From positions 1,674,001 to 1,738,000 of the forward strand of contig NZ_LR882982.1 in NCBI RefSeq assembly GCF_904831005.1: a stretch of DNA of 64,000 nucleotides, in the 5' to 3' direction. Positions 45,406-64,000 of the stretch are shown piece by piece. Below the pieces are notes generated by a model that made no database searches, was not told where the DNA came from, and saw nothing but the letters and a program-made list of their open reading frames with translations. This stretch comes from Microbacterium hydrocarbonoxydans (GTDB lineage Bacteria; Actinomycetota; Actinomycetes; Actinomycetales; Microbacteriaceae). Each line of letters opens with the position of its first letter. Position 1 is the first letter of the stretch. The position numbers and the translations under genes were made by a program.

Positions 45406-45954
45406 TCAGTCCGTCGGCCACGCGGCCGCGACGGCCTCGCGCACCTCGCCGAGGAGTTGGGGCAGGGCCTTCGTCTTGGCGATGATCGGGAAGAAGTTGG
45501 CGTCCGACGTCCACCTCGGCACGATGTGCTGGTGCAGGTGGCCGTCGACGCCGGCGCCCGCGACGGCGCCCTGATTCATCCCGAGATTGAACCCATCGCA
45601 CCGCGACACCTCCCGGAGCACGCGCATGCCGATCTGGGTCAGGGCGCCGATCTCGGCGACCTCTTCCGGCGTGGCCTGGTCGTACGTGCCGATATGGCGG
45701 TACGGGCAGACGAGCAGATGCCCCGAGTTGTACGGGAACAGGTTGAGCAGCACGTACGCGGTCTCACCGCGTGCGACGATCAGCCGCTCGGCATCCGGGA
45801 ACTTCGGGGCCTCGCAGAACGGGCACTCCTCGCGCAGCGGCTCGGGGCCCGCCTGGATGTACGCCATCCGGTGAGGCGTCCAGAGCCGCTGGAACTCGTC
45901 GGGGACGCCCGCGAACTCGCCGGCGTCCTCCCACGGTCCTGAGGGCGTCGTCAC
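45406..45954 (-). CDS. HIT domain protein (AP4A phosphorylase/hydrolase-like)
   Basis: 182 residues. The catalytic histidine triad is [10 protein letters not shown] near residue 140. CPFCEAPKF (C-x2-C) is a zinc-ligand pair near the N-terminus, and [19 protein letters not shown] is the second core region. The actinobacterial family with this layout is usually described as Ap4A phosphorylase. GTG start overlapping the thrS stop (GTGA), so it is coupled to thrS. Confidence 0.9.
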
Positions 45955-47951
45955 GCCAGATCCCCTGCTGTCTGCACGAGCGTGTGCGCGTCGATCGCGG
46001 CGCGGATGCGCGCCACCGCGTCGACGATCGGCACGCCGTTCTCCTGCGTGCCGTCGCGGTAGCGGAACGAGACGGTGCCCGCATCGCGGTCCTTCTCCCC
46101 CGCGATCAGCAGCAGCGGGACCTTGCCGGTCGTGTGCGTGCGGATCTTCTTCTGCATCCGGTCGTCGGAGGTGTCGAGCTCAGCGCGCACGCCCTGGGTG
46201 CGCAGAGTGTCGATGACCTCTCCGAGGTAGTCGGCGAAGTCGTCGGCGACCGGGATGCCCACGACCTGCACCGGCGACAGCCACACCGGGAAGTCACCGG
46301 CGTAGTGCTCGAGGAGGATCGCGAAGAAGCGCTCGATCGAGCCGAAGAGCGCACGGTGGATCATGATCGGACGCTTCTTCTGGCCGTCCTTGTCCATGTA
46401 CTCGAGCTCGAAGCGCTCCGGCAGGTTCGGGTCGACCTGCACGGTCGAGAGCTGCCAGGTGCGGCCGATCGCGTCACGCGTCTTGAGGTCGATCTTCGGC
46501 CCGTAGAACGCGGCCTCGCCCGGCACCTCGGTGAGCTTGAGACCGGATGCCACGGCGACCCGCCGCAGCGCATCGGTCGAGGAGTCCCAGAACTCGTCGG
46601 AGCCGATCCACTTCGACTTCTCGTCGTCCTTCATCGACAGCTCGAGCTCGAAGTCGGTGAGACCGAAGTCACGGAGCATCGAGAGGATGAACTCCAAGAC
46701 CTTCGCGACCTCGCCCTCCAGCTGCTCGGGCGTGACGAACAGGTGCGAATCGTCCTGAGTGAAGCCGCGCACACGGGTGAGGCCGTGCAGCGCGCCGGAG
46801 AGCTCGTTGCGATAGACCGTGCCGTTCTCGGCGAACCGCAGCGGCAGGTCGCGGTAGCTGCGCGCACGCTCCTTGTAGATCAGGATGTGCATCGGGCAGT
46901 TCATCGGCTTCAGGTAGTAGTCCTGGCCCTGCTTGGTGATGTTGCCCTCGTCGTCGCGCTCCTCGTCCATGACGATCGGCGGGTACATGCCCTCCTTGTA
47001 CGTCACGAGGTGGTTCGAGGTGAGGAAGAGGTCTTCCTTGGAGATGTGCGGGGTGTAGACGTAGGTGTAGCCGCCCTCGATGTGACGCTTGCGCGCGTGC
47101 TGCTCCATCTCGCCGCGGACGACGCCACCGCGCGGGTGCCAGACCGACAGGCCCGAGCCGATCTCCTCGGGGAACGAGAACAGGTCGAGTTCCTTGCCGA
47201 GTCGACGGTGGTCGCGCTTGGCGGCCTCCTCGAGGCGGTGCTGGTACTCGCGCAGCTCGTCCTTCGACGGCCAGGCGGTGCCGTAGATGCGCTGCAGCTG
47301 GGGGTTCTTCTCGCTGCCGCGCCAGTAGGCGGCGGCGATACGGGTGAGGTCCCAGCCGTTGCCGATCATGCGGGTGTTGGGCAGATGCGGTCCGCGGCAG
47401 AGGTCCTTCCAGACGACCTCGCCGTCGCGGGTCGTGTTGTCGTAGATCGTCAGCTCGCCCTCGCCGACCTCGACCGACGCACCCTCGGCCGCCTCTTTGC
47501 CACCCTTGAGACCGATCAGCTCGAGCTTGAACGGCTCGTCGGCCAGCTCTGCTCGCGCCTCGTCGTCGGTGACCACGCGGCGCACGAAGCGCTGGCCCTC
47601 GCGGACGATGCGCTGCATCTCTTTCGTGATGGCCTTGATGTCCTCCGGTGTGAACGGGGTGTCGACACCGAAGTCGTAGTAGAAGCCGTCGGTGATGGGC
47701 GGCCCGATGCCGAGGTTCGCCTGCGGGTTGATCCGCTGCACCGCCTGCGCGAGCACGTGCGCGGCGGAGTGACGCAGGATGTTCAGTCCGTCAGGGCTGT
47801 CGATCGTCACCGGCTCGACCTCATCGGCGTCCGTCACAGTCGCGGCGAGGTCCTTGAGGGTTCCGTTGACGCGCATCGCGACGACTGAACGGTCAGAGAA
47901 CAGGGCGAAGCCGTCTTTCGGCTGAGCATTTTCAGGCACTGCACACTCCAT
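45951..47951 (-). CDS. thrS: Threonyl-tRNA synthetase
   Basis: 666 residues, class II. Domains in order: short TGS-like N-terminus, editing domain ([38 protein letters not shown]), catalytic core ([68 protein letters not shown]), and an anticodon-binding C-terminus. Cys/His zinc ligands are in the core. Start: ATG 47951 as annotated, but GTG at 47939 has GGAG 6 bases upstream and may be used. An upstream TAGCCT/TAGACC could hold a -10. Confidence 0.98.
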
Positions 47952-48443: not shown

Positions 48444-48863
48444 ATGCTCACAGCACTGGCGCGTTGGATCCTCGCACTCGCACTCGGCGCGATCGGCGTC
48501 GTGCATTTCGTGAGCACCCGAGGCTTCCGTGTGGTGGTGCCCGACTGGGCCACCCGGCTGACGCGCCTCGACAAGGACGCGATAGTGATCGCCTCGGGAG
48601 CCGCGGAGGTCGCCCTCGCGATCGGCCTTCTCACTCTGCCCGAGGAGCGGCGACGCATCGGGTTCGCGACGGCCGCGTTCTTCGTCGCGGTCTTCCCGGG
48701 CAATGTGCATCAATGGCGCACGCATCGATCGACGCCGGGACTCGACACCGAGGCACGACGGTTCGGCCGGCTTCTCCTTCAGCCCGTCCTCGTGCTGTGG
48801 GCGCTGTGGTCGACCTCCGAGCCCGTTCCGACGCGGCGGCGATCGGGCCGTCGTACTCGCTGA
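48444..48863 (+). CDS. DoxX-like small membrane protein
   Basis: 139 residues with four hydrophobic helices: [60 protein letters not shown] and [13 protein letters not shown]. The pattern (GIVHF-like first helix, [12 protein letters not shown] second, FPGNVHQW third) fits DoxX-like proteins. Function unknown; possibly redox-linked, as proposed for DoxX. 56 bases before the photolyase gene. Confidence 0.8.
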
Positions 48864-48919
48864 TCAGCAGCACGCGCAACCCCACCCGGTCGGGCGGTCT
48901 TCCAGGTGAGAATGGAGCC

Positions 48920-50266
48920 ATGGCTTCCCCCTCGCTCGTCTGGCTCCGCGACGACCTCCGCCTCGCAGACAATCCGGCGCTGAGGGCCGCGATCGATCGC
49001 GGTGAGCCGCTGGTGGTGCTGTACGTGCTCGATGAGGAATCCCCCGGTGTCCGCGCTCTGGGCGGCGCGGCCCGCTGGTGGCTGCATCACTCTCTCGTGT
49101 CTCTTCGTGACCGCCTGCAGGATGCGGGCGCCGACCTCGTGCTCCGCCGCGGACCTGCCTCGCGGGTCGTGCCGGCGGTCGTCGACGAGACCGGCGCAGC
49201 GGCGGTCTATTGGAACCGCAGGTACGGAGGAGCGGAACGCGACGTCGACGCCGCTCTGAAGTCGGACCTCCGCGATGCCGGCATCGAGGTGACCTCATTC
49301 GCCGGCTCTCTGCTGCACGAACCGTGGACGGTGAAGACCGGAGCGGGAACGCACTTCTCGGTCTTCACCCCCTTCTGGCGAGCCTGCCTGGCACTTCCTG
49401 CGCCTCGGGCGCCGTTGCCGGAACCCCGACGTGTGGACGGTGCTCCGATGCCGTCATCCGACGACATCGACGCGTGGGGACTGCTCCCCACCCGGCCCGA
49501 CTGGGCATCCGGACTCCGCGAGACCTGGGAGCCCGGAGAGCCCGCAGCACGCGCGCGCCTGCGCACCTTCCTGCACGATGATCTCGGTGACTACGACCGG
49601 GCGCGAGACGAGCCCTCCGCCGGCGCGACGTCTCTGCTCTCTCCGCGCCTGCGATGGGGCGAGATCAGTCCGTTCACCGTGTGGCACGAGGCCACGGCGG
49701 TCGACGGCGCCGGGGGGTTCCTCTCCGAGCTCGGATGGCGTGAGTTCGCGTGGCACACCGCCTACCACTTCCCGCGGCTGGCGACCGAGAATCTCCGTCG
49801 CGAGTTCGACGCCTTCCCGTGGCCGCGGCTGAACGCATCGCACCTGCACGCCTGGCAGAGGGGCGACACGGGCATCCCCCTCGTCGATGCGGGAATGCGC
49901 GAACTGTGGCACACGGGATACATGCACAATCGGGTGCGCATGGTCACCGCGTCGTTCCTCGTCAAGAACCTTCTGATCGACTGGCGTCGCGGTGAGGAAT
50001 GGTTCTGGGACACCCTGGTCGATGCGGACGGCGCGAACAACTCGTTCAACTGGCAGTGGGTCGCCGGCTCCGGAGCCGATGCCGCGCCCTACTTCCGCGT
50101 CTTCAATCCCGAACTGCAGGCCACCAAGTTCGACCCTCAGCGCCTGTACATCTCGCAGTGGGCCTCGGATGCTCCGCAGGAGCCGATCGTGGATCTCCGC
50201 GAGACGAGGAAGAGCGCCCTCGCCGCCTACGACGTCGTCAAGCGGTCTCCCCGCCCGACCGACTGA
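48920..50266 (+). CDS. phr: Deoxyribodipyrimidine photolyase
   Basis: 448 residues. N-terminal alpha/beta antenna domain (SLVWLRDDLRLADNPALRAAID) and the C-terminal helical FAD domain (MHNRVRMVTASFLVKNLLIDW, GEEWFWDTLVDADGANNSFNWQWVAG, FNPELQATKFDP). Repairs UV cyclobutane dimers with blue light. ATG at 48920 with GGAG 3 bases before it; the longer in-frame upstream reading has no family sequence. Convergent with the lipoprotein gene. Confidence 0.95.
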   Translation: MASPSLVWLRDDLRLADNPALRAAIDRGEPLVVLYVLDEESPGVRALGGAARWWLHHSLVSLRDRLQDAGADLVLRRGPASRVVPAVVDETGAAAVYWNRRYGGAERDVDAALKSDLRDAGIEVTSFAGSLLHEPWTVKTGAGTHFSVFTPFWRACLALPAPRAPLPEPRRVDGAPMPSSDDIDAWGLLPTRPDWASGLRETWEPGEPAARARLRTFLHDDLGDYDRARDEPSAGATSLLSPRLRWGEISPFTVWHEATAVDGAGGFLSELGWREFAWHTAYHFPRLATENLRREFDAFPWPRLNASHLHAWQRGDTGIPLVDAGMRELWHTGYMHNRVRMVTASFLVKNLLIDWRRGEEWFWDTLVDADGANNSFNWQWVAGSGADAAPYFRVFNPELQATKFDPQRLYISQWASDAPQEPIVDLRETRKSALAAYDVVKRSPRPTD

Positions 50267-50782: not shown

Positions 50783-53700
50783 CTATGAGGAGAGAGTCGA
50801 GGAGCCGCTGTTCCGCCGGCGGCGACCGGCGAGCAGCAGCACGAGTCCGGCGAGGAGGAGGATCATCGAACCGCCCACGAGCGGCGTCACGTCGCCCCCG
50901 CCCGTCGTCGGCAGCGGAAGAACCGGCGGGTCATCGCTCGGCGACGGGGAGGTCGGCGCCGTCGGCGCGGGAGAATCGGTCGGCTCAGGGGACGTCGTGG
51001 GGGTCGGCTCAGGAGACGTCGTAGGAGTCGGCTCAGGGGACGTCGTGGGAGTCGGAGACGCAGTGGGCGTCGGCTCGGGTTCGCGGCCGGGCAGGACTGT
51101 CGAGTCGTTCGCGGCATCCCTGACGGGCTCTCCGGTCTGGGCCTCCTGGCTGGTCACCACCGCCCGCGACGACACCACTGTGCCTTCCATCTCAGGCGTG
51201 ATGATCACTGTCGCGATGGCGATGACGCTCTGTCCCGGGAGCAGCACGCCCGGCTCGCCCGGCCAGCGGTAGTCGATCGGAGAGAGCCCCGGGAACAGAT
51301 CCGTGATCGACACTCCGGTGAGTATGGTCGTTCCGGTGTTCGTGACCCTGTATTCGAAGACCAGCGTGTCGCCCGCATAGCCGCGTTGACCGTCCTGAAC
51401 AGCGATGCTCATGTCCAGCTGGATACGAGGCGCATTCGGAATCTCGACGCGCACGGTGTCGCCGGCCTCGATCACCTCACCGCTCGGTGTGCTCGCTGCT
51501 GCCGACGCGGTGTTGTCGATGTGTCCCCTGTCGACGTCGGCCTGGGCGATCACGTACATGGCCGTGGCTGTCACCGATTCACCGGCGGCGAGCGTGCCGG
51601 GCGTTCCGGGCCAGGTGACCGTCGGCGTTCCGAGTCCCGGGAGGTCATCGGCGATCGACACGCCCCCGAGCGTCACGTTCCCTGTGTTCGTGACCGTGAG
51701 GACGTACTTCACTGAGCCACCCTGCTGGGCGGGGCCGGTGAGATCGGCGGTCTTCTCCAACGCGAGACCGGGAGCGGATTCGACGAGGACCGACCCCGCA
51801 TCGACGTCGCGCACGACCACGCCCGATGCGGTGCCCGTGACGACGGCATCCGAGGCGATGCCACCCGCGTCGACGTCAGCCTGGGTCAGCGTGTATCGCG
51901 CGACAGCGGTGGCCGTCTGGCCGGGAGCCAGCACTCCCGGTTCGCCCGGCCAGGCGATCTGCAGGCCTTCGAGGCCGAACTGCGCGTCGCCGAGAGTGAC
52001 CCCGCGCAGCGTGACGTTCCCGGTGTTGCGGAAGCTGAATGTGTAGTCGACTCGATCGCCCGGGTACCCGGTGGCCCCATCCGAGTAGGTCTGTTGCTTC
52101 TCGAGATCGATCGACGCGGCGGATGCAGCGGTCGGGATGATCGATGTCGGCGAGGTCGTGGCCACTGCGCTGCCGTCCGGAAGCCGGGCTCCCGCAGTGG
52201 CAGTGTTGCGGACTTCGCCCGCGTCGACGTCGGCCTGACGGATGACGTACGACGCGGAGGCGGCGACGGACTGCCCCGGAGCCAACACGCCCGGTGCTGC
52301 GGGCCAATCGTAGGAGATCGTCGAGAGTCCGGGGAGACCGTCCTCGAGTGCCACCGAGGTGGCGGTCAGCGTGCCGGTGTTCGCGATGACGAAGGAGTAG
52401 TCGATGCGGTCCCCCACCGCGCCCGCGCCCTGTCGGACGCCGTTCTTGGAGACCGAGAGCGCTCCGAGGCCTGCGACCAGCGGAACCTCGGTTCTCGCAG
52501 AGTCGTCGGACACACGGACTCCCGCCGGTTGCTCGCCCGTGCCGGTCGCGACATTGCGGACCAGTCCCGCGTCGACGTCGGCCTGCGACACCACGTGCGT
52601 CGCGGTGATGACGACGCTCTGGCCCGGTAGCAGACGACCGGGATTCGCGGGGTCGGGCCACGAGTAGACGACTCCGGTCAGTGCGGCCACCGAATTGTCG
52701 AGACGCACGTCGTGGAGGGTCGTGTTGCCGGTGTTCCGGATCCGGAACGAGTACTCGATCGCATCTCCCCGCACTCCCGAGTCACCGGCCGCCAGCGCCG
52801 CGGTCTGTGTCGTCTCGATCGCCCGGTCCGGGGCGGTGGGAGGATCCGTGTCGATCACGAACGGATCAGAGCTGTCTGACACCACGGTCCCGCGCGGCGA
52901 CGTGCCGAACGAGGTCGCGACGTTGCGGATCGAGCCCGCGTCCACATCGGCCTGGGTGACGGTGTAGCGTGCGACACCCGTCGCGCTTCCGCCGGGCGGA
53001 AGGATGCCAGTGGTCGAGGGGAACTCGATCTGCGGTGTTCCGAGTCCTGCAAGGTCGTCCTGAAGACGGATCAGCCGCAGAGTGACGTTGCCGGTGTTCG
53101 TGATGTCGAAGGTGTACTCGATGACGCTGCCGACACCGCCGCTGCCTTCCGCGTACGCACCGCCCTTGACCGTCCGGATGGACGGTGCGTGATCCGCCGT
53201 CGGGATCGGGTCGGTGGTGGAGGTGGCGGTGAGCATGCCTCCGCCGGCGCCCGTCGCTCGGATCGAGGCGGTGTTCTGCACCGATCCTCGGTCGACATCC
53301 TCCTGGCTGATGGCGTAGGGGGCGCGTCCTGTGACGATCTGCCCCGGCGCGACGACGCCGGCGGCGCCGGGCCAGTCGATCGTGATCGGACCGATCCCTA
53401 CGAGATCATCGGTGATCGAGACGTCGGAGAGCGTGACTGTTCCGGTGTTCTCGATCCGGAACCCGAAAGTCACACCGTCGCCTGCGTCGTCGGCGCCCGG
53501 TGCGTCGAGGGCTGCGGTCTTCGTGAAGAGGAGGCCGGGAGCGGCGATGACCGAAACCGTGGCGGGCGCAGTCGCAGTCGCAGGTGCTCCGGTGGGTGGG
53601 GTGCCGGTTCCGGTGACGAGGCTGGTGACGCTGCCCGCGTCGACGTCGGCCTGGGTGAGGACGTACGTCGCCGTCGCCCGCACCGACTGCCCCGGCACGA

Positions 53701-56700
53701 GCACACCCGCAGCACCCTCCCACACATACTCCGGAGCCGAGACCCCCGCCAGCGCATCCGCCAACACCGCACCGGTCAACGTCACCGTGCCCTCGTTCGT
53801 GAGGACATACGACCACGTCACGACATCGCCCGCCCTGCCGGTGGCCCCGGGAGCCAGAGCACCCGCATTCGACACCGACACCGCCGGCACCGCAGCGTCC
53901 GTCGACACCACACTCTCCGGCGACACCACCGTGATCGCCTCCGACCGCGCCGGCACACCCGACGCCGACGCCGTGTTCACCACCCGACCCGCATCCACAT
54001 CCGACTGCACGATGACGTACTCACCCGTCGCCGTCGCCGTCTGCCCCGGCGCGATCACCCCAGGAGCCCCCGCCACCGGCCACACCACATCCGAGAGCAC
54101 CACACCCGGAACCGCATCCGAGAGCACCACACCCGACACCGACACATTGCCCGTGTTCGTCACACCGAACTCATACGACACCACATCGCCGACACCACCA
54201 CCATCGACCAACGCACCCGACTTCGACACCACCAACCCCGGAGCCGGCAACACCGTACTCACCCGCACCGTGTTCGTCGACGCCACCACCGGCACACCAC
54301 CAGGAGCCCTCGCCGCCACCGACGCCGTGTTCTCCACGAACCCCGCATCCACATCCGCCTGCTTCAGATCATAGAAACCACGACCCGTCACCGACTCACC
54401 CACCCCGACCCGGCCAGGCACAGCAGGATCCGGCCACGCGATCGACACCCCATACAGATCCTCCATCGGATCCACCAGCACACCATCCGTGACCGTCACA
54501 TTGCCCGTATTCGTCACCACCACCGAATACTCGACCGTGTCACCCACCACACCGATATCACCCGCCGCCAACACACCCGACTTCACCGCAGACAACTGCG
54601 GAGTCCTGGGGATGACCACGGTCGCGAGGCCGTCGGCCTCCGTGATGTCGCCAGATGGGGTGGTCGCCGTGACGGACACCGTGTTCGCCACGGAGCCCGC
54701 GTCGATGTCGGCCTGCGTGAGCAGGTATGTCGCGGTGCCGAGCGCCTCGCCGCCGACCGGAAGCACGCCCTGAGCCGCGGGATCGTCGCTCGGCCACGTC
54801 ACGGCGATGGCGCTGAGTCCCGCGAGCTCGTCGGAGAGAGTGACGCCGCTGAGCGTCTGGTTGCCCGTGTTCGCGATAGAGAACGTGAACTGCACGGCCT
54901 CGCCGACCTGGCCCGTGGAGCCTGCCGTCAGCGCACCTGTCTTCTCGACCCTGATATCAGGGTCGGCTGCCGCCGTGGGCGTGCGCACCTCGTCCGACGG
55001 GTCCGACACAGGATCCCCGCCCGGAGTCGTGCCTGAGGCCGTCGCCGTGTTCACGACCGCTCCCGCATCCACATCCGCCTGCGTGATCGCATAGCTCGCC
55101 GTGGCGCTGGCGGTGGCGCCCGGGGCGAGTACGCCCGGTGCGTCGGGCCAGCGCACGACGGGCGCAGAGAGTCCGGGCAGCGGATCCGAGAGCGTGATTC
55201 CCGAGATGGTCACTGTGCCGGTGTTCTCGATCGTGAAGGCGTAGTCGACGATGTCCCCGACAGCTCCGTCTCCCCTGAGCGTGGCCGACTTGACGGTCTC
55301 GAGCTCCGGATCCGCCGGCGCGACCTCTGTCGTCGCCGGAGGCGTGCTCGCAGTGATCGTGTCGCCGACGGGCGGTTTGCCGCTTGCGGTCGCGATGTTG
55401 GTCACCGATCCTCGATCGACGTCGGCCTGCGTGATGATGTACGTGGCGGTCGCTGCGACCGAGTCACCGGGAACGAGGATCCCGGGCTCTGCCGGCCAAT
55501 CGAAGATCGGATCGCTGACGCCGACGAGCGCATCGGCCAGATCGACGAGCGTCAGCGTGACGTTGCCGGTGTTGGCGATGTCGAAGCTGTAGTCGATGCG
55601 GTCGCCCACGCCGCCCTGCCCCCGCACCGTGCCCGACTTCGTCGCGGCCAGGTCAGGACGCGCGGCGATCTGCACACCGGCCGCGGCGGATGCCGACACC
55701 TCCGCCCCGCGCGGAGGCGTGCCTCGGCCCTCGACGGCACTCGACACGCTGCCACGGTCGATGTCGGCCTGGGTGAGGACGTATGCGGACGTCGCCGTCA
55801 CCGTCTGACCGGGTAGCAGGACGCCGGGTCTCTCCTGATCCGGCCAGACGTATGCGGCCGCGGACGAGCCCTGGAGCTGATCGGCGAGGGTCACGCCGGT
55901 GAGCGTGACGTTGCCCGTGTTGCGCAGCGAGTAGCCCCAGGTGACGACGTCTCCGGCGATGCCCTCGGCATCCGGGGCCAGCGTCGCCGTCTTGCGCACA
56001 TCGACGGTCGCCTGAATGCCCTGAGTGTCGACCGTCTCGATCGCCGGCGGACTCGTGACGGGTCCGCCCCGAGAGCTGCCGCTCGCAGTAGCGGTGTTCG
56101 CGATCGAACCTGCATCGATGTCGTCCTGAGTGATCGTGTACTCGGCCGATGCGGTGGCTGTCTGTCCTGGTGCGAGTGATCCCTCAGCGCCCGGCCAGGT
56201 GATCTGCGGTGCGCTCAGACCCCGCATCGCATCGGTCAGAGTGATTCCGCTGATCGTCACATTGCCCGAGTTGGTGATCGTGAAGGCGTAGTCGACGTCG
56301 CCGCCGACGCCCCCGGCCCCGTCGACCACTGCGTCCTTCGTCACCGTCAGCGCCGCAGCAGGCTGGACCGTGTTGATGATGACGGGGTTGGAATCGGCGA
56401 CGACCTTCCGGCCGTTCGGAGTCAGTGCCTCGACGCCGGCGATGTTGCGCACGAAGCCGCGGTCGATATCGGCCTGGGTGAGGGTGTACCAGGCAGTGCC
56501 GACGACGGTCCCGCCGACCAGAAGCTCGCCCTCGGCACCGGGCCACTCGATCTCGGGCAGCGACAGCCCCGCGAGACGATCGATGAGGCGGCCGTCATGC
56601 ACCGTGACATTGCCCGTGTTCGTGACGACGAGTCGGTACTCGATGACATCGCCCACCTCACCGATGCCGCCGTCGAGAAGCTGACCGCTCTTGACCGTCG

Positions 56701-59700
56701 TGAGCTCGGCCGCCTCCTCGATCGGAACGGTGGTCGAGGCCGGACGCACGATCGACGCACCGTCGGCGGCCGTCGCGCTCAGCGTTGCGGAGTTCTGGGC
56801 GTAGCCTCGATCGACATCGGCCTGCGTGAGGGTGTATTCGGCGAAGGCGTCGGCTCCCTGCCCCGGGGCCAGCACGCCACGGTCGCCCGGCCATGCGACG
56901 TCGATCTCGGACAGACCCTCGAGCGGGTCGGAGACGGACACGTCGCTGAGCGTGACGTTGCCGATGTTCTCGAGACGGAACGAGAATCGCACGACGTCTC
57001 CGGCTCGGCCCGTCGCACCTGGCGAGAGCACACCGCTCTTGGTGAACGTGGCATCCGGCGCTGCATCGACGAGATCGACCACGACCTCCTCAGACGGATC
57101 GTCCACGCTCTCTCCCGACGGTGCAGTACCCGAGCCGGTGGCCACATTCGAGACCGCGCCGCGATCGACGTCCTCCTGCGTGATCACGTAGCGTGCTGTG
57201 CCGACCAGCGTCTCGTTCGGAGCGAGGACTCCGGCATCCCCCGGCCAGACGACCGCGATGTCGGACAGACCCTCGAGCACGTCGACGATCCCGACGTCGG
57301 TCAGGGTCACGTTGCCGGCGTTACGGACCTCGACGCGATACTCGATCACGTCGCCGACGGCACCTGTCCGACCCTCAGCGAGCTGACCGTACTTGGTCGT
57401 CTCGACCACGGGCGTCGCCGCGTCGAGCTGTGTGATCACCTCATCGGACACGCCGGTCACGACGACTCCGCCCGGCGCGGATGCTCGTGCCGAGGCGGTG
57501 TTCGTCACGTCACCGCGGTCGACGTCGGCCTGAGTGATGACGTACGTGGCCGTCGCCGTCGCGACCTCTCCCGGAGCAAGCACGCGCTCGACGCCCGGCC
57601 AGACGATCGACGGGGTGCCGAGCCCTGCGAGGGTGTCGGACAGCACGACGCCCGAAAGGGTGACGTTGCCGCGGTTCGCGATCGTGAAGGAGTACGTGAT
57701 GGTGGCGCCCGCGCCACCGCCTGTCGTCGTGTACGCCTTGGTGACCTCGAGGGCCGGGTCGGCGGTGAGCGGGATCGTCGCCGGAGCAGAGGACGAGACG
57801 GGTGCTCCGGTGGGTGGGGTGCCGGTTCCGGTGACGAGGCTGGTGACGCTGCCCGCGTCGACGTCGGCCTGGGTGAGGACGTACGTCGCCGTCGCCCGCA
57901 CCGACTGCCCCGGCACGAGCACACCCGCAGCACCCTCCCACACATACTCCGGAGCCGAGACCCCCGCCAGCGCATCCGCCAACACCGCACCGGTCAACGT
58001 CACCGTGCCCTCGTTCGTGAGGACATACGACCACGTCACGACATCGCCCGCCCTGCCGGTGGCCCCGGGAGCCAGAGCACCCGCATTCGACACCGACACC
58101 GCCGGCACCGCAGCGTCCGTCGACACCACACTCTCCGGCGACACCACCGTGATCGCCTCCGACCGCGCCGGCACACCCGACGCCGACGCCGTGTTCACCA
58201 CCCGACCCGCATCCACATCCGACTGCACGATGACGTACTCACCCGTCGCCGGCGCCGTCTGCCCCGGCGCGATCACCCCAGGAGCCCCCGCCACCGGCCA
58301 CACCACATCCGAGAGCACCACACCCGGAACCGCATCCGAGAGCACCACACCCGACACCGACACATTGCCCGTGTTCGTCACACCGAACTCATACGACACC
58401 ACATCGCCGACACCACCACCATCGACCAACGCACCCGACTTCGACACCACCAACCCCGGAGCCGGCAACACCGTACTCACCCGCACCGTGTTCGTCGACG
58501 CCACCACCGGCACACCACCAGGAGCCCTCGCCGCCACCGACGCCGTGTTCTCCACGAACCCCGCATCCACATCCGCCTGCTTCAGATCATAGAAACCACG
58601 ACCCGTCACCGACTCACCCACCCCGACCCGGCCAGGCACAGCAGGATCCGGCCACGCGATCGACACCCCATACAGATCCTCCATCGGATCCACCAGCACA
58701 CCATCCGTGACCGTCACATTGCCCGTATTCGTCACCACCACCGAATACTCGACCGTGTCACCCACCACACCGATATCACCCGCCGCCAACACACCCGACT
58801 TCACCGCAGACAACGCGGCTCCTGCAACGATGGGAACGGTCGCGGCGGCAGTGTCGTCCACGACTGCATCCGACGGCGCGACGGCCCGTGCGGTGAACGC
58901 GTTGACCACGGAGCCGGAGTCGACGTCGTCCTGCGTGAGCGTGTAGGCCGCGGCGGCGGCCGCCCGGGCGTTCGGGGCCAGAACTCCGGGCGCACCGGCA
59001 TCGGGCCAGGTGATCGAGAGAGGACCGAGTCCGGGCATGGCGTCGTCGAAGGAGACATCTTCGAGGGAGACGTCGCCCGAGTTGAGGATCGCGTAGCGGA
59101 ACTCCACGACGTCACCGGCTCGGCCCGTGGCTCCGGCCGCCAGGCTCCCGCCCTTCGTCGCGGTGATCGCGGGTGCGGTCTCGGCAAGCTCGGTCGTGAC
59201 GCGTGCGGGATCGGAGGAGACCGACGACTCGTCAGCTGCGACACCGTTCGCGATCGCACTGTTCACCACCTCACCCTCGTCGACATCGGCCTGCGTGACG
59301 GTGTAGTTGGCGGTGGCACTCACCTGCTGGCCGGGGACCAGAACCCCGGTCTGACCGCTCGGCCACGCGCCGAACGAGATGCCGGAGAGTCCCTCGAGCT
59401 CGTCCGTGACGGCGATGTCCGAGATCGTCGTGTTGCCGCTGTTGCGGATCACGAAGGAGTATGTGATCGGCGCTCCGATCCGGCCGTCACCCCCGAGTTC
59501 GTCGGTCTTCGTCAGCACGAGCGCCGGCTCGCGGGTCTCAGTCGTGAGGTCGATCCAGTCGGATGCCTCCACGACGGCTTCGGAGGGCGTGAGTCCGGTC
59601 ACCGTGGCTTGGTTCCGAATCCCCCCGCGATCGACGTCCGCCTGCGTCACGGTGTAGGTCGCAGACGCCGTGACTGAGTCATCCGGCCCCAGGGTTCCCG

Positions 59701-62700
59701 CATCGGCCGGCCATGCGCCGAACGCGATGTCGGAGAGGCCCGGCAGAGGATCGCTGAGGGCGATCCGGTCGACCGTCACGGTGCCGGAGTTGACGATCTC
59801 GAAGCCGAACTCCACCTCGTCGCCCACCGAGAGATCAGCATCCGGCGACGCCGACTTGATGAGGGTGAGCGCCGTTGTCTGAGGGATGGGCACGGATGCC
59901 GGCTGCGTCGCAGTCACCACGGCACCTGAGGGGGCGGTCCCTCGCCCCGTCACCAGGCTGATGATCGAACCGGCATCGACATCGGCCTGTGTGAGCACTG
60001 TCGTCGCTGTGGCCGTCACCGACGCTCCCGGAGCCAGCTCGCCCTCCGGACCCTCCCAGTCGTAGACGGGCTGGCTCGTACCGGGTAGCGCGTCCGAGAG
60101 CACGACCCCGGTGAGAGTCACAGTGCCTGAGTTCGTGAGGACGTATGTCCAGGTCACGGCATCGCCCTCCGCCGCTCCCGGCGGCAGCGAGCCGGAGTTC
60201 GTCACCGACACCGCCGGGCGAGCGGTCGGCATCACGACGGATACGGACGGCGAGGTCGCAGAGACCGGCTGCGGATTCTCGACGCGGGATTCCCCGGCCA
60301 CGGACGCCGTGTTGGTGATCGAACCCGAATCGACATGCTGCTGAGTGACCACGATCGTCGCCGTCGCGGTGACAGTCTCGCCGGGTTCGAGCGACCCCGG
60401 TGTTCCGCCCGCCCAGTCGAACACTGCATCGGAGATTCCGGGAAGACTGTTGCCGATCGCGTCGATGCCGTCCACGGAGACCGTGCCGGTGTTCTGGACG
60501 GTGTAGGTGAACGTGACGGTCTCGCCGAGCGCGGCTCGAGCCGGCGCCGACTGAGTGATGACCAGTTGCGCGCGCTGCTCCCCGGTCGGCACGTCGGCAC
60601 TCGCGGTCACCGGAGCGATGGGTCCGGACGGCGCGTCAGCGGTCGCGGTCACCGAGTTGCTGACGCGGCCCGCATTGACGTCGCCCTGTGTGATGACGTA
60701 GAAGGCCTGCGCCGTCGCCCGCTCACCCGGTGCGAGCACACCCGGAGCATCTGCGTCGGGCCAGGCGATCTGCGGCGTCAGGCCGGGGATCGCCTCGTCG
60801 AGCGTCACGCCGGTGAGAGTCACGTTCCCCGTGTTCACGAGATCGAAGTCGAAGCGGATGGTGTCGCTCGCGAGGCCCGAGCCCAGCACTGTGCCGATCT
60901 TCGACACGGACATCGACCCTGATCGCGTGATCGGGACGGCGACCTCGGCCTGCTCGCTGATCGGCACGTCGCCGGGCGCGATGGCGGATCCGGTGACGAT
61001 GTTGCTGATCGACCCCGTGTCGATGTCGTTCTGGGTGAGTACGTAGGTCGCTGTCGCGGTCAGCACCTGATTCGGCGCGAGGACCCCCTCGGGGCCGGGC
61101 CAGGTGTAGAGCAGCGGTGAGACCCCGTCTGCGAGGTCGACGAGCCCCACACCGCTCAGGCTGACATTGCCGACGTTGCGCAACGAGAACGAATAGGTGA
61201 CGGCGTCCCCGGCCCGTGCTGCCGCGCCGCCTGAGAGGGTCCCCGTCTTCGCGACCTCGATGTCAGGCGCCTGCGCGGCGGTTCGCGTCGTCACGGTGTC
61301 CGAGGGGTCAGTCACCGCCGGCCCTGACGGCGGCGTCCCGGTCGAGCTCGCCGTGTTCGTGACCGCGCCGGCGTCGAGATCCTTCTGAGTGATGCGATGC
61401 GTGGTGGAGGCCGTCACCGACTCCCCCGGCTGCAGAGTCCCGCTCGCGCCGGGCCATGAGCCGTAGACGAGCGGGCTGAGCCCGGGAGCCGGATCGGAGA
61501 TCGAGACTCCGGTGAGCGTCACGTTGCCCGAGTTGGTCGCACGGAGGGTGTACGTGATCAGGTCACCGAGTTGACCGCTGCCGCCCACCGACGCGGATTT
61601 CGTCGTGAGGGTGGAGGGCGCCGCAGCATCGGTGCCGAGAATGACGGGCTGAGAGGAGCCGGAGACGAGCGATCCCGTGGGCGGGCGTCCCGACACGGAG
61701 GCGATGTCGGTGATCGATCCGGCGTTCACATCGCTCTGGCGCACGACGTAGGTCGCCGTCGCGATGACGGTCTGGTTCGGCGCGAGCGTGCCGGCTGTGC
61801 CGGAGGGCCAATCGCCGTAGTCGATCGCCGACAGGCCGCTGTGCGGGTCGGCGACGACCACGCCGGTGAGAGTCACGTTGCCGGCGTTGCGCACCGTGTA
61901 CGTGTAGGTGATCGTGGAGCCCACGGCTCCGGAGCCGGACGTGTATGCGCCGGCCTTCTGGAGCGTGACCGCAGGGGTGGAGCTGAGCGGAACCGTGCCC
62001 GAACCGATCGCCGTCGTCGCCTGTCCCACCGAGGGCGAGCCTGTCGCCGTCGCCGCGTTCGAGACCGACCCGGCGTCGACGTCGGTCTGGAGCACCCGCG
62101 ACGTCGCCGTCGCCGTCACAGCCGACCCCGGGGGCAGGACCCCGGATGCGCCCGTGGGCCACGCTCCGTACGAGAGATCGCTGATTCCGGGGAGGGAATC
62201 AGTCGCCGACACGCCCGACAACGTGACGTTGCCGACGTTGCGGATGCTCACGCTCCAGGTGATCGTCTCGCCGGCGACACCGCTCGCTCCCGCGGGAAGG
62301 GTTCCCGTCTTGGCGACCTGCAGACGGGGGTCTGCGGCTGCGGTCGCCGTCGACACGGCGGCCGACGCGGCGCTGACGGGGACACCGCTGGGAGAGACCG
62401 CGCTGCCGGTCGCGACGTTCGTCACGACACCCGCGTCGAGGTCTGCCTGAGTGAGGGTGTGGTTCGCCCGTGCGACCACCTGTCCGCCCGGCGCCAACAC
62501 CCCTGCGTCACCGGGCCAGGTGTACTCGAACGGGGTCAGTCCTGCCAGCGGATCCGTGACGACGACGCTGCGGAGGGTGACATTGCCGGTGTTCGTCACC
62601 CGCACCGTGTACTCGATGATGTCGCCGACGCCACCTGCACTCTGCACCGTCGCCGTCTTCACCGTCGAGAGACCGGGGCCGGCCGGCACGGTCGCGAGCG

Positions 62701-64000
62701 TGACGGTGGGCGACGTGGCCGAGGCGTTCGCGCCCGAGGGAGCGACGCCCGTGACGCGCGCGGCGTTGCTCACGCTCCCGGAATCGACATCGGCCTGCGT
62801 CACCGTATAGGTGGCCGTGCCTGTGACCTCCTGGCCCGGCGCCAGAGTGCCCGCAGCTGCCGGCCAGCTGAGTGCGACGGTGCTCAGGCCCGTGTGCGGG
62901 TCGTTGATCGACACGCCCGTGAGAGTGACGTTGCCTGTGTTGCGAGCCGAGAAGGCGTATGTGATGACGCTGCCGACCGCACCGTTGCCCAGGGTGTACG
63001 ACCCGGTCTTGCCGAGCGTCAGCGCCGGCCCCGCCACCAGCGCAAGCGTGGCGGAGGCTGTTGCCGCGACGGCGGCACCCGTGGGAGGAGTCGCGGTGGC
63101 CGTCGCTGTGTTCGCGAGGGAACCGGCGTCGACGTCGGACTGCGTCAGCGCACGAGTGGCGGTGGCGGTCACACTCTGCCCGGGCTGCAGAACGCCCTCC
63201 GTGCCCGGCCATGCGGCGTATGCGAGTGGCGACAGGCCCGGCAGCGGATCCGCGATCGCGACGCCGGTCAGTGTGACGTTTCCCGCGTTCCGCACGGTGA
63301 AGCTGTAGGTGACCACGTCGCCGGAGCGACCGGTCGCGCCGGGAGACAAGGCGGCGGTCTTGTCCATCGTCAGTCGGGGCGCCGCAGCCGCGGTTGCCGT
63401 GACGACCTCCGGCGAAGAACCGTCGACGACCACGCCACCCGGCGCCGATGCCGACGCGCTTGCGCGGTTTCTGATCGCTCCCGCGTTCACATCGGCCTGA
63501 GTGATCACGTAGGTGGCCCTCGCGATCGCCGCCTGGCCCGGTGCAAGTACTCCCGCGACCCCGGGCCACGTGATCGACAGCGCCGACAGCCCGGCGAGCG
63601 GATCGTTCAGGGTGACGCCGGTGAGGGTCTGATTTCCGCTGTTCTCAGCGCGGATGCTGAACGTCACGACGTCGCCGACACGGTTGCCCGATGCCGCCGA
63701 GGAGCTCTTCGAGACGGTGAGTCCCGGCGCCGCCGCCGTTGTATCGACCACCGCCACAGCGGAACTCGCGCTGACGACGGGTCCGGCCGGCGGACGACCG
63801 CTCACGGACGCGGTGTTGCGTACTGAGCCGGCATCCACATCGGACTGGCGCACCGTGTACGTCGCCGTGCCCGATGCGGTCTGCCCCGGCGCAAGGGTGT
63901 TGGGAGCCCCGGGCCAGGTGATCGTCGGCGTGCTGAGACCCGCGAGGTTGTCGGTCAGGGTGATGCCGTTGAGACTGACGTTCCCTGCGTTGCGGATCGT
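50783..64000 (-). CDS. Giant sortase-anchored surface protein of DUF11/DUF7507-type repeats (5' end beyond window)
   Basis: One uninterrupted frame of at least 4405 codons; no start seen, as it runs off the window. About 37 tandem repeats of roughly 115-120 residues each end with a TQADVDAGSVxNTA-like motif. The consensus is an Ig-like fold of the DUF11 type (NTGNVTLTGV, WPGxxGVLAPGQ). The C-terminus has a Thr/Ser/Pro/Glu stalk (about residues 4270-4350 of the visible part), the sortase motif LPTTG (bases 50900-50914), a hydrophobic helix and an RRRR tail. So it is covalently attached to the cell wall, probably as a stalk or adhesin (inference). No sortase gene here. It contains the two near-identical blocks and three 24-base stalk repeats listed below. 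Confidence 0.95.
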   Translation of the reverse strand, partial: TIRNAGNVSLNGITLTDNLAGLSTPTITWPGAPNTLAPGQTASGTATYTVRQSDVDAGSVRNTASVSGRPPAGPVVSASSAVAVVDTTAAAPGLTVSKSSSAASGNRVGDVVTFSIRAENSGNQTLTGVTLNDPLAGLSALSITWPGVAGVLAPGQAAIARATYVITQADVNAGAIRNRASASASAPGGVVVDGSSPEVVTATAAAAPRLTMDKTAALSPGATGRSGDVVTYSFTVRNAGNVTLTGVAIADPLPGLSPLAYAAWPGTEGVLQPGQSVTATATRALTQSDVDAGSLANTATATATPPTGAAVAATASATLALVAGPALTLGKTGSYTLGNGAVGSVITYAFSARNTGNVTLTGVSINDPHTGLSTVALSWPAAAGTLAPGQEVTGTATYTVTQADVDSGSVSNAARVTGVAPSGANASATSPTVTLATVPAGPGLSTVKTATVQSAGGVGDIIEYTVRVTNTGNVTLRSVVVTDPLAGLTPFEYTWPGDAGVLAPGGQVVARANHTLTQADLDAGVVTNVATGSAVSPSGVPVSAASAAVSTATAAADPRLQVAKTGTLPAGASGVAGETITWSVSIRNVGNVTLSGVSATDSLPGISDLSYGAWPTGASGVLPPGSAVTATATSRVLQTDVDAGSVSNAATATGSPSVGQATTAIGSGTVPLSSTPAVTLQKAGAYTSGSGAVGSTITYTYTVRNAGNVTLTGVVVADPHSGLSAIDYGDWPSGTAGTLAPNQTVIATATYVVRQSDVNAGSITDIASVSGRPPTGSLVSGSSQPVILGTDAAAPSTLTTKSASVGGSGQLGDLITYTLRATNSGNVTLTGVSISDPAPGLSPLVYGSWPGASGTLQPGESVTASTTHRITQKDLDAGAVTNTASSTGTPPSGPAVTDPSDTVTTRTAAQAPDIEVAKTGTLSGGAAARAGDAVTYSFSLRNVGNVSLSGVGLVDLADGVSPLLYTWPGPEGVLAPNQVLTATATYVLTQNDIDTGSISNIVTGSAIAPGDVPISEQAEVAVPITRSGSMSVSKIGTVLGSGLASDTIRFDFDLVNTGNVTLTGVTLDEAIPGLTPQIAWPDADAPGVLAPGERATAQAFYVITQGDVNAGRVSNSVTATADAPSGPIAPVTASADVPTGEQRAQLVITQSAPARAALGETVTFTYTVQNTGTVSVDGIDAIGNSLPGISDAVFDWAGGTPGSLEPGETVTATATIVVTQQHVDSGSITNTASVAGESRVENPQPVSATSPSVSVVMPTARPAVSVTNSGSLPPGAAEGDAVTWTYVLTNSGTVTLTGVVLSDALPGTSQPVYDWEGPEGELAPGASVTATATTVLTQADVDAGSIISLVTGRGTAPSGAVVTATQPASVPIPQTTALTLIKSASPDADLSVGDEVEFGFEIVNSGTVTVDRIALSDPLPGLSDIAFGAWPADAGTLGPDDSVTASATYTVTQADVDRGGIRNQATVTGLTPSEAVVEASDWIDLTTETREPALVLTKTDELGGDGRIGAPITYSFVIRNSGNTTISDIAVTDELEGLSGISFGAWPSGQTGVLVPGQQVSATANYTVTQADVDEGEVVNSAIANGVAADESSVSSDPARVTTELAETAPAITATKGGSLAAGATGRAGDVVEFRYAILNSGDVSLEDVSFDDAMPGLGPLSITWPDAGAPGVLAPNARAAAAAAYTLTQDDVDSGSVVNAFTARAVAPSDAVVDDTAAATVPIVAGAALSAVKSGVLAAGDIGVVGDTVEYSVVVTNTGNVTVTDGVLVDPMEDLYGVSIAWPDPAVPGRVGVGESVTGRGFYDLKQADVDAGFVENTASVAARAPGGVPVVASTNTVRVSTVLPAPGLVVSKSGALVDGGGVGDVVSYEFGVTNTGNVSVSGVVLSDAVPGVVLSDVVWPVAGAPGVIAPGQTAPATGEYVIVQSDVDAGRVVNTASASGVPARSEAITVVSPESVVSTDAAVPAVSVSNAGALAPGATGRAGDVVTWSYVLTNEGTVTLTGAVLADALAGVSAPEYVWEGAAGVLVPGQSVRATATYVLTQADVDAGSVTSLVTGTGTPPTGAPVSSSAPATIPLTADPALEVTKAYTTTGGGAGATITYSFTIANRGNVTLSGVVLSDTLAGLGTPSIVWPGVERVLAPGEVATATATYVITQADVDRGDVTNTASARASAPGGVVVTGVSDEVITQLDAATPVVETTKYGQLAEGRTGAVGDVIEYRVEVRNAGNVTLTDVGIVDVLEGLSDIAVVWPGDAGVLAPNETLVGTARYVITQEDVDRGAVSNVATGSGTAPSGESVDDPSEEVVVDLVDAAPDATFTKSGVLSPGATGRAGDVVRFSFRLENIGNVTLSDVSVSDPLEGLSEIDVAWPGDRGVLAPGQGADAFAEYTLTQADVDRGYAQNSATLSATAADGASIVRPASTTVPIEEAAELTTVKSGQLLDGGIGEVGDVIEYRLVVTNTGNVTVHDGRLIDRLAGLSLPEIEWPGAEGELLVGGTVVGTAWYTLTQADIDRGFVRNIAGVEALTPNGRKVVADSNPVIINTVQPAAALTVTKDAVVDGAGGVGGDVDYAFTITNSGNVTISGITLTDAMRGLSAPQITWPGAEGSLAPGQTATASAEYTITQDDIDAGSIANTATASGSSRGGPVTSPPAIETVDTQGIQATVDVRKTATLAPDAEGIAGDVVTWGYSLRNTGNVTLTGVTLADQLQGSSAAAYVWPDQERPGVLLPGQTVTATSAYVLTQADIDRGSVSSAVEGRGTPPRGAEVSASAAAGVQIAARPDLAATKSGTVRGQGGVGDRIDYSFDIANTGNVTLTLVDLADALVGVSDPIFDWPAEPGILVPGDSVAATATYIITQADVDRGSVTNIATASGKPPVGDTITASTPPATTEVAPADPELETVKSATLRGDGAVGDIVDYAFTIENTGTVTISGITLSDPLPGLSAPVVRWPDAPGVLAPGATASATASYAITQADVDAGAVVNTATASGTTPGGDPVSDPSDEVRTPTAAADPDIRVEKTGALTAGSTGQVGEAVQFTFSIANTGNQTLSGVTLSDELAGLSAIAVTWPSDDPAAQGVLPVGGEALGTATYLLTQADIDAGSVANTVSVTATTPSGDITEADGLATVVIPRTPQLSAVKSGVLAAGDIGVVGDTVEYSVVVTNTGNVTVTDGVLVDPMEDLYGVSIAWPDPAVPGRVGVGESVTGRGFYDLKQADVDAGFVENTASVAARAPGGVPVVASTNTVRVSTVLPAPGLVVSKSGALVDGGGVGDVVSYEFGVTNTGNVSVSGVVLSDAVPGVVLSDVVWPVAGAPGVIAPGQTATATGEYVIVQSDVDAGRVVNTASASGVPARSEAITVVSPESVVSTDAAVPAVSVSNAGALAPGATGRAGDVVTWSYVLTNEGTVTLTGAVLADALAGVSAPEYVWEGAAGVLVPGQSVRATATYVLTQADVDAGSVTSLVTGTGTPPTGAPATATAPATVSVIAAPGLLFTKTAALDAPGADDAGDGVTFGFRIENTGTVTLSDVSITDDLVGIGPITIDWPGAAGVVAPGQIVTGRAPYAISQEDVDRGSVQNTASIRATGAGGGMLTATSTTDPIPTADHAPSIRTVKGGAYAEGSGGVGSVIEYTFDITNTGNVTLRLIRLQDDLAGLGTPQIEFPSTTGILPPGGSATGVARYTVTQADVDAGSIRNVATSFGTSPRGTVVSDSSDPFVIDTDPPTAPDRAIETTQTAALAAGDSGVRGDAIEYSFRIRNTGNTTLHDVRLDNSVAALTGVVYSWPDPANPGRLLPGQSVVITATHVVSQADVDAGLVRNVATGTGEQPAGVRVSDDSARTEVPLVAGLGALSVSKNGVRQGAGAVGDRIDYSFVIANTGTLTATSVALEDGLPGLSTISYDWPAAPGVLAPGQSVAASASYVIRQADVDAGEVRNTATAGARLPDGSAVATTSPTSIIPTAASAASIDLEKQQTYSDGATGYPGDRVDYTFSFRNTGNVTLRGVTLGDAQFGLEGLQIAWPGEPGVLAPGQTATAVARYTLTQADVDAGGIASDAVVTGTASGVVVRDVDAGSVLVESAPGLALEKTADLTGPAQQGGSVKYVLTVTNTGNVTLGGVSIADDLPGLGTPTVTWPGTPGTLAAGESVTATAMYVIAQADVDRGHIDNTASAAASTPSGEVIEAGDTVRVEIPNAPRIQLDMSIAVQDGQRGYAGDTLVFEYRVTNTGTTILTGVSITDLFPGLSPIDYRWPGEPGVLLPGQSVIAIATVIITPEMEGTVVSSRAVVTSQEAQTGEPVRDAANDSTVLPGREPEPTPTASPTPTTSPEPTPTTSPEPTPTTSPEPTDSPAPTAPTSPSPSDDPPVLPLPTTGGGDVTPLVGGSMILLLAGLVLLLAGRRRRNSGSSTLSS
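50977..51050 (-). repeat. Three 24-base direct repeats in the surface protein stalk
   Basis: Three tandem copies of a 24-base unit (starting near 50980, 51004 and 51028) coding for an 8-residue TTSPEPTP-type unit. Such short in-frame repeats can change copy number by slippage, altering stalk length without breaking the frame. Confidence 0.7.
53583..54596 (-). repeat. Near-identical 1014-bp block, copy A
   Basis: Matches copy B at 57801-58814 with a constant offset of 4218 bases and no gap; I found one mismatch (T54034 against G58252, a Thr-to-Pro change). It encodes about 338 residues, nearly three repeats, from LSAVKSGVLAAGDIG to GTPPTGAP. The offset is 1406 codons, so recombination between copies would remove or add about 12 repeats in frame. 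Most of the block has G- or T-ending codons, unlike its surroundings. Confidence 0.93.
57801..58814 (-). repeat. Near-identical 1014-bp block, copy B
   Basis: Second copy of the block described at 53583-54596, in the same orientation and frame. It differs at one base by visual alignment. The flanking sequences of A and B are unrelated at base level beyond the shared repeat consensus, so the identity has sharp edges. Confidence 0.93.

Follow-up and report, generated by a model that had tools for sequence, protein, structure and literature searches.

A gene-converted, G+T-skewed block pair in a giant DUF7507 stalk gene of Microbacterium hydrocarbonoxydans and its possible link to NucS mismatch rejection

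The giant stalk gene and its twin blocks

The 64,000-nucleotide window analysed here, part of the single 3,724,963-bp contig of the Microbacterium hydrocarbonoxydans genome, contains the greater part of a giant gene for a repetitive surface protein, in which two blocks of sequence are almost identical. The gene lies on the minus strand as an open frame of about 6,100 codons (genome positions 1743106-1724783) and extends past the window, whose positions 50783..64000 encode about 4,405 of these codons, on the C-terminal side, as tandem DUF7507 units of approximately 117 amino acids. We read the blocks as two segments of three units each that were paired long ago and have since been held identical by gene conversion, with no change in stalk length. 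The strongest feature of these identical tracts, a strand-specific base skew, was missed in the initial annotation.

Copy A (57801..58814, minus strand, about 2.9 units) is the one nearer the N terminus, and copy B (53583..54596, minus strand) lies 4218 bp downstream of it within the gene; the units separating them (54597..57800, minus strand) are diverged and of ordinary composition. As initially claimed, the copies align over 1014 bp without gaps and differ at one base, 54034 T versus 58252 G on the plus strand, which corresponds to a Thr/Pro difference in the protein. Extension of the alignment showed that the block edges are sharp, with an identity of about 25-60% per 100 bp immediately outside. 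The surrounding repeats have indeed diverged: the next longest exact repeat across the whole gene is 23 bp, and the 1014-bp identity is therefore far beyond chance. The offset is a multiple of three (1406 codons, about 12 units), as had also been stated. A 12-unit duplication behind this offset was considered and rejected, as a lag scan with the block excluded gave no 1406-aa signal among the 25 strongest lags, and no third full-length copy was present among the candidates scored in the same genome. A diversity-generating retroelement would be marked by many adenine differences; the blocks show a single difference, although a reverse transcriptase was not looked for.

The repeat units match Pfam DUF7507 (PF24346) in the three pieces of the protein that were scanned. 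Judged by eye from the translation, the protein begins with a signal-peptide-like start and ends in an LPTTG motif (50900..50914, minus strand) followed by a hydrophobic stretch and RRRR, which has the appearance of a sortase-type anchor. The linker preceding LPTTG (about 50915-51060, minus strand) contains short proline/threonine repeats in tandem, with 23 bp repeated exactly at offset 48. DUF7507 has been described as a stalk domain with predicted internal isopeptide bonds and renamed CLIPPER_2 (PMC12617251). The giant gene shares tandem DUF7507 units in a long surface protein and, by appearance, a sortase-type anchor with the fibrillar adhesin stalks of that report, which deals with their isopeptide bonds, whereas conversion between units is a feature of the gene described here. 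In a contig scan its named relatives were three loci, all from Microbacterium (sp. H83, Leaf320). Pfam assignments identify the neighbours as a DNA photolyase gene (48464-50266, plus strand) and a threonyl-tRNA-synthetase-like gene (45951-47951, minus strand); no sortase was found among the four window proteins scanned.

Concerted evolution of the blocks across Microbacterium

With the block as query, 186 of 366 Microbacterium genomes gave a match, and in thirteen, that of M. hydrocarbonoxydans (G000) included, the best E-value fell below 1e-50. Both copies could be read in register in seven of these, at an offset of 4218 (G000, G071), 4221 (G303, G073, G129, G301) or 4203 (G278). Five relatives match the M. 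hydrocarbonoxydans block at 78-83% identity, and G278 matches it at 65-66%. Within each of the seven genomes, the longest exact tract shared by the two copies measures 186 to 956 bp; the copies are partly diverged in G303, G129 and G301, and those of G278 are homogenised over only about 340 bp. The set of thirteen genomes is completed by G340 and by five drafts (G174, G161, G162, G216 and G188) whose contigs end inside the block. G174, G161 and G162 have near-identical ends of 63 to 512 bp, and in G216 and G188 no such ends longer than 40 bp were found. Because seven genomes share the layout and five draft assemblies break within the block, an assembly error appears very unlikely as the source of the twin blocks.

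Phylogenetic analysis separated the history of the blocks from that of their surroundings. In the block tree, the copies of five of the seven genomes (G000, G071, G073, G278 and G303) pair by genome with support of 100/100, while the G301 and G129 copies do not resolve as pairs and take places next to G073 and G303. In the trees of both flanks, A separates from B with support of 100/99 or better, a division by position, with a long-branch warning for the right flank. Uninterrupted open frames in the genus (n=5) measure 6075-6108 codons. Since the blocks group by genome, the flanks group by position, and spacing and frame lengths are nearly constant, the two copies must overwrite each other while the length of the stalk stays the same. 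Of the initial proposal of a recent copying event or ongoing gene conversion, it is thus the second half that stands. Differences at four-fold degenerate sites between M. hydrocarbonoxydans and G303, G129, G073, G301 and G071 amount to 0.26-0.36 in the block and 0.51-0.63 elsewhere. This contrast is smaller in close pairs (G303-G129, 0.20-0.21 versus 0.19-0.40; G073-G301, 0.20-0.23 versus 0.25-0.39) and absent for G278. A foreign origin of the blocks was rejected, there being no plasmid match and a composition that follows identity.

Several related loci were recorded alongside these. The genes of G071 (L020) and G301 (L024) have shorter open frames of 4366 and 4609 codons that start after an upstream stop, reflecting either an assembly indel or a real interruption. 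In the G340 gene (L037), two identical stretches of 127 bp stand 2100 bp apart (six units, not twelve) and are likewise G+T skewed. No skewed homogenised pair was found in ten giant DUF7507 genes from other genera of the family (L053-L072): nine are without a homogenised stretch, and G513 has 190 nt that are unskewed. Seven of the ten measure 6075-6172 codons, a similarity in length that is weak evidence because the genes were picked for long frames.

Base skew, GRINS and replication direction

Homogenised tracts are rich in G+T and poor in A+C on the coding strand, and the skew is weaker or gone where the copies have diverged. Four-fold sites of the M. hydrocarbonoxydans block contain A.02 C.16 G.67 T.16, compared with A.09 C.43 G.40 T.08 in the rest of the gene, which raises A+G from 0.49 to 0.69, and two-fold sites end in T in 28 of 49 cases in the block versus 127 of 774 elsewhere. 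GC content is 0.677 in this block versus 0.690, and is lower in the block by 0.01-0.07 across the seven genomes. Diverged parts that have escaped homogenisation show C.50 G.38 (G301) and C.57 G.35 (G278). Over 77 windows, identity correlates with G+T fraction (rho 0.56, p 1e-7), the mean rising from 0.41 in windows below 70% identity to 0.88 in those above 97%. A model with one parameter per genome, in which G and T are equally favoured (keto), gained 496.5 log units versus 515.8 for the free model; the other one-parameter models gained 389.5 (C-only), 251.4 (G-only), 161.0 (purine), 113.7 (T-only), 45.5 (A-only) and 27.2 (GC). In twelve other Microbacteriaceae repeat genes or gene pieces, the summed gain was again best for G+T (181.6; C-only 139.1, G-only 111.7, free 238.4). 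In DUF7507 repeat genes of one other genus (L084, L083 and L080) skew is absent or weakly reversed (G470, k 0.59); in G614 the gene is head-on as judged by dnaA.

Substitutions were polarised in the two close pairs against an outgroup common to both. Those from G/T to A/C affect 13 of 228 homogenised sites versus 379 of 1049 flank sites (p 1e-23), and G-T exchange affects 16 of 228 versus 49 of 1049 (p 0.18). The reverse A/C-to-G/T changes (1 of 10 homogenised versus 386 of 1313 flank sites) are too few for judgement. The suppression acts like a fixation bias: because G/T-to-A/C changes are suppressed and G-T exchange is not, a raised mutation rate would not give this pattern, while a veto on one class of change would.

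By published criteria the block pair is a pair of genetic repeats of intense nucleotide skews (GRINS). These are defined by an extent of about 1 kb, or 500 bp as a minimum, that is more than 80-90% identical to a second region within the gene (PMC10394414, PMC9899208) and by GC and TA skews above 25%, or 15% in PMC9899208. The blocks have 1014 bp with one difference, a GC skew of about 0.33 and a TA skew of about 0.29 (from base frequencies), and gene conversion evident from the block and flank trees. Their host encodes a DUF7507 protein, whereas the GRINS of these two papers are located in assembly-line polyketide synthase (PKS) genes; the founding abstract reportedly names other gene families too. 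With the GRINS of PKS genes, which are commonest in actinobacteria (PMC10394414), the pair therefore shares the size of about 1 kb, in-gene repetition above 90% identity, both skews and gene conversion; it differs in sitting in a surface-stalk gene and in having been traced as one pair across species.

The sign of the skew was tested on actinobacterial modular PKS genes, where GRINS are known. Replication origins were placed at the chromosomal dnaA; in G1180 and G1233, with dnaA at the contig start, the arms were assumed to meet midway, and G878 was assumed to be circular. Regions were chosen among those listed by frame size and orientation, not by composition, and for the second sample orientation was worked out before the sequences were fetched. 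Stretches with fewer than 30 four-fold sites were dropped, and a sign was counted at a log-likelihood gain (dlnL) above 3. In the first sample (28 regions), co-directional stretches gave 53 keto and 1 amino (A+C) signs among 54 (71 scored), and head-on stretches 8 keto and 23 amino among 31 (47 scored). The second sample (11 regions) gave 36 keto and 3 amino among 39 co-directional stretches (60 scored), and 12 keto and 58 amino among 70 head-on stretches (116 scored). Because the stretches copy one another, a fair count goes by locus: over both samples (27 loci), co-directional loci were 15 keto and 0 amino and head-on loci 3 keto and 9 amino (Fisher p 4.7e-5). Regions whose target genes had no scored stretch stand outside these counts, namely G965, G878b, G1182a and G1277c (first sample, co-directional), G866h2, G1173, G1294, G1157, G1282, G1277h and G1214h (first sample, head-on), and G1238h2 with one small head-on open reading frame (ORF) in G1314 (second sample, head-on). 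The other-strand ORFs of six first-sample head-on regions (G1190, G1173, G1294, G1282, G1277h and G1290h) are also outside them, and G973 (keto, k 3.2) was excluded from both samples, its replication direction being unsure. By impression, large modular PKS frames among those listed are far oftener co-directional than head-on.

The fork rather than transcription appears to set the sign of the skew, because in G1189 two clusters on one arm that are encoded by opposite strands differ in sign (-262.9 for the head-on cluster, +248.1 for the co-directional one). Keto and amino skews alike keep the two-class shape: for 73 strongly skewed first-sample stretches, the keto model gained 2036.7 versus 2168.0 for the free model, with 1634.1 for C-only, 1336.1 for G-only and 970.4 for purine. 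The giant gene of M. hydrocarbonoxydans is itself co-directional with the fork (dnaA near 2.615 Mb, gene at 1.724-1.743 Mb, both on the minus strand), as is that of G071. Replication direction is unsure in G303, G129 and G301 because the gene lies close to the point opposite dnaA (approximately 20-130 kb).

NucS and the origin of the skew

All 20 Microbacterium genomes tested possess NucS, and MutS was found in none of the 20. NucS of M. smegmatis discriminates more than 500-fold against G-G, G-T and T-T mismatches on the lagging-strand template and lets others through (PMC11551767). These preferred mismatches also appear in a review, according to which recombination at 90% identity rises ten-fold when NucS is absent (PMC8228993). 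The Streptomyces enzyme is the topic of PMC11109965. Gene conversion probably keeps the blocks identical as a GRINS pair whose skew arises from a NucS veto at the fork, the NucS step and the strand geometry being what we infer. Near the fork, a donor strand would anneal to the lagging-strand template of the recipient copy, and NucS/EndoMS, used in place of MutS, would reject G-G, G-T and T-T heteroduplexes and ignore others. An A or C on the lagging-strand template could then be overwritten by G or T, with the reverse blocked, so that every round of conversion would remove fresh A/C mutations and spread G/T ones. In a co-directional gene such as the M. hydrocarbonoxydans giant gene the coding strand would turn G+T rich, and copies escaping conversion would relax in composition. 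From such a veto would follow joint enrichment of G and T, free G-T exchange and reversal in head-on genes, all of which are observed. We favour the NucS explanation because the copies are identical within genomes and diverged between species at near-constant spacing, the skew is concentrated in homogenised tracts, only G/T-to-A/C changes are suppressed, and the PKS skew sign mostly follows replication direction. On balance, and by a slighter preference, we further suggest that in NucS bacteria conversion drives the lagging-strand template of repeats towards G+T, NucS vetoing just those heteroduplexes by which A or C would enter it, and that GRINS are the scars of such 'keto-biased gene conversion'.

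MutS overlooks mainly C-C. Giant plasmid genes from hosts that we take to be MutS users served as a control, and ten of the 21 had at least 40 homogenised four-fold sites. The Loktanella gene fits G-only (272.7 versus keto 159.6, T factor 1.04), and GC enrichment is the best one-parameter model for the Nitratireductor, R. rhizoryzae and Mesorhizobium genes. Gloeothece shows AT enrichment, Acaryochloris is undecided between keto (4.2) and AT enrichment (4.6), and no skew pattern was found in the remaining four of the ten scored genes (Variovorax, Roseivivax and two from Sinorhizobium). Homogenised plasmid repeats of MutS-type bacteria thus follow patterns other than G+T, which fits best in two Streptomyces plasmid PKS regions. 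Plasmids of two Loktanella salsilacus strains (L136, L137) carry a giant DUF11 gene of 18.2 and 13.9 kb, the longer with approximately 8.4 kb of homogenised repeats and G-only skew, the shorter with none.

Several observations weigh against the NucS explanation. Escaped parts in G303 and G129 keep an intermediate composition (C.34-.35 G.46), and some identical windows are unskewed, with G+T as low as 0.35. The free model is somewhat better than the keto model, T often being more favoured than G, and four of the twelve other Microbacteriaceae repeat genes have no skew or the opposite one. Keto skew occurs in three of the twelve head-on loci, strongly in G866h1 (+50.9; G1182h +6.3, G969h +3.9). 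The MutS control is small, at ten genes from presumed MutS hosts, and the data on NucS and MutS content come from Microbacterium genomes, not from those with the PKS loci. To our knowledge, the cyanobacteria, Firmicutes and eukaryotes that have GRINS lack NucS. GRINS are known in cyanobacteria, Firmicutes and some eukaryotes (PMC10394414), and this same distribution speaks for a rival in which conversion is real and the skew is due to another strand-biased factor, such as polymerase or nuclease bias in gap repair. We regard this as rather unlikely, given that the mismatch classes fit NucS closely and that MutS-type genes with a clear signal differ.

A mutation bias of the replication strands, such as deamination of the exposed strand, acting more strongly in recombining tracts, would account for a skew sign that follows replication direction, and leading strands are generally G+T rich. 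It is nevertheless improbable: deamination alone leaves purine content unchanged, yet A+G at four-fold sites rises as given above, and G/T-to-A/C changes are fewer, not more, with no significant rise in G-T exchange. Causation might also run the other way, a G-rich strand (R-loop or quadruplex) driving recombination so that skewed tracts remain homogenised. Skew and identity do go together, and Borrelia vls cassettes are G-skewed and recombining (PMC11499132), but we give this idea little credence. A transcription R-loop does not fit because the template strand is the G+T rich one in head-on genes, and T enrichment and free G-T exchange are expected under neither form. The vls system, moreover, has silent cassettes and an expression site, whereas the two sites here are both expressed within a single gene, and in part of the table of that source its AT skew is near zero (for example B31, GC 0.554, AT 0.046), that is, G without T.

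The initial annotation had also seen in the blocks a possible length-variation mechanism. In-frame direct repeats make a switch that deletes or adds 1406 codons possible; the idea finds no support across species, whose spacing and length are nearly constant with no length variant seen, and is very improbable. That a recent 1-kb duplication inherited its odd composition from a source is almost certainly wrong despite the single difference in 1014 bp, as the pair occupies the same two positions in seven species with the four-fold divergence noted above, its trees refute recent duplication of the pair as such, and no other source was found among the candidates scored in the same genome or in plasmids.

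GC-biased gene conversion is a repair preference acting like selection on composition. The block pair resembles it in that a repair preference shapes composition, and differs in that block GC falls slightly and the bias is G+T versus A+C on one strand. No GRINS-NucS link was present among the best-ranked openly licensed literature from 2021 on, and, judged by title and abstract opening, none of the openly licensed papers listed tied GC skew and conversion of PKS repeats to the replication strand. Within the literature searched, four points are new: how a single pair behaves over the long term in several species, the G+T rule with its one parameter, the rule that sign follows replication direction, and the explanation through NucS. 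The origin of GRINS is reportedly unknown. They have been proposed to accelerate how antibiotic assembly lines evolve (PMC10394414). If the NucS explanation is true, their skew has a simple cause that predicts its sign, shape and spread, and it would mark, from sequence alone, where recombination is live in giant repeat genes. It would also constitute a form of biased gene conversion acting on strand skew rather than GC content, with base composition recording recombination activity, fork direction and the mismatch system of the lineage. The fingerprint of a mismatch enzyme could thus explain a puzzling class of gene repeats.

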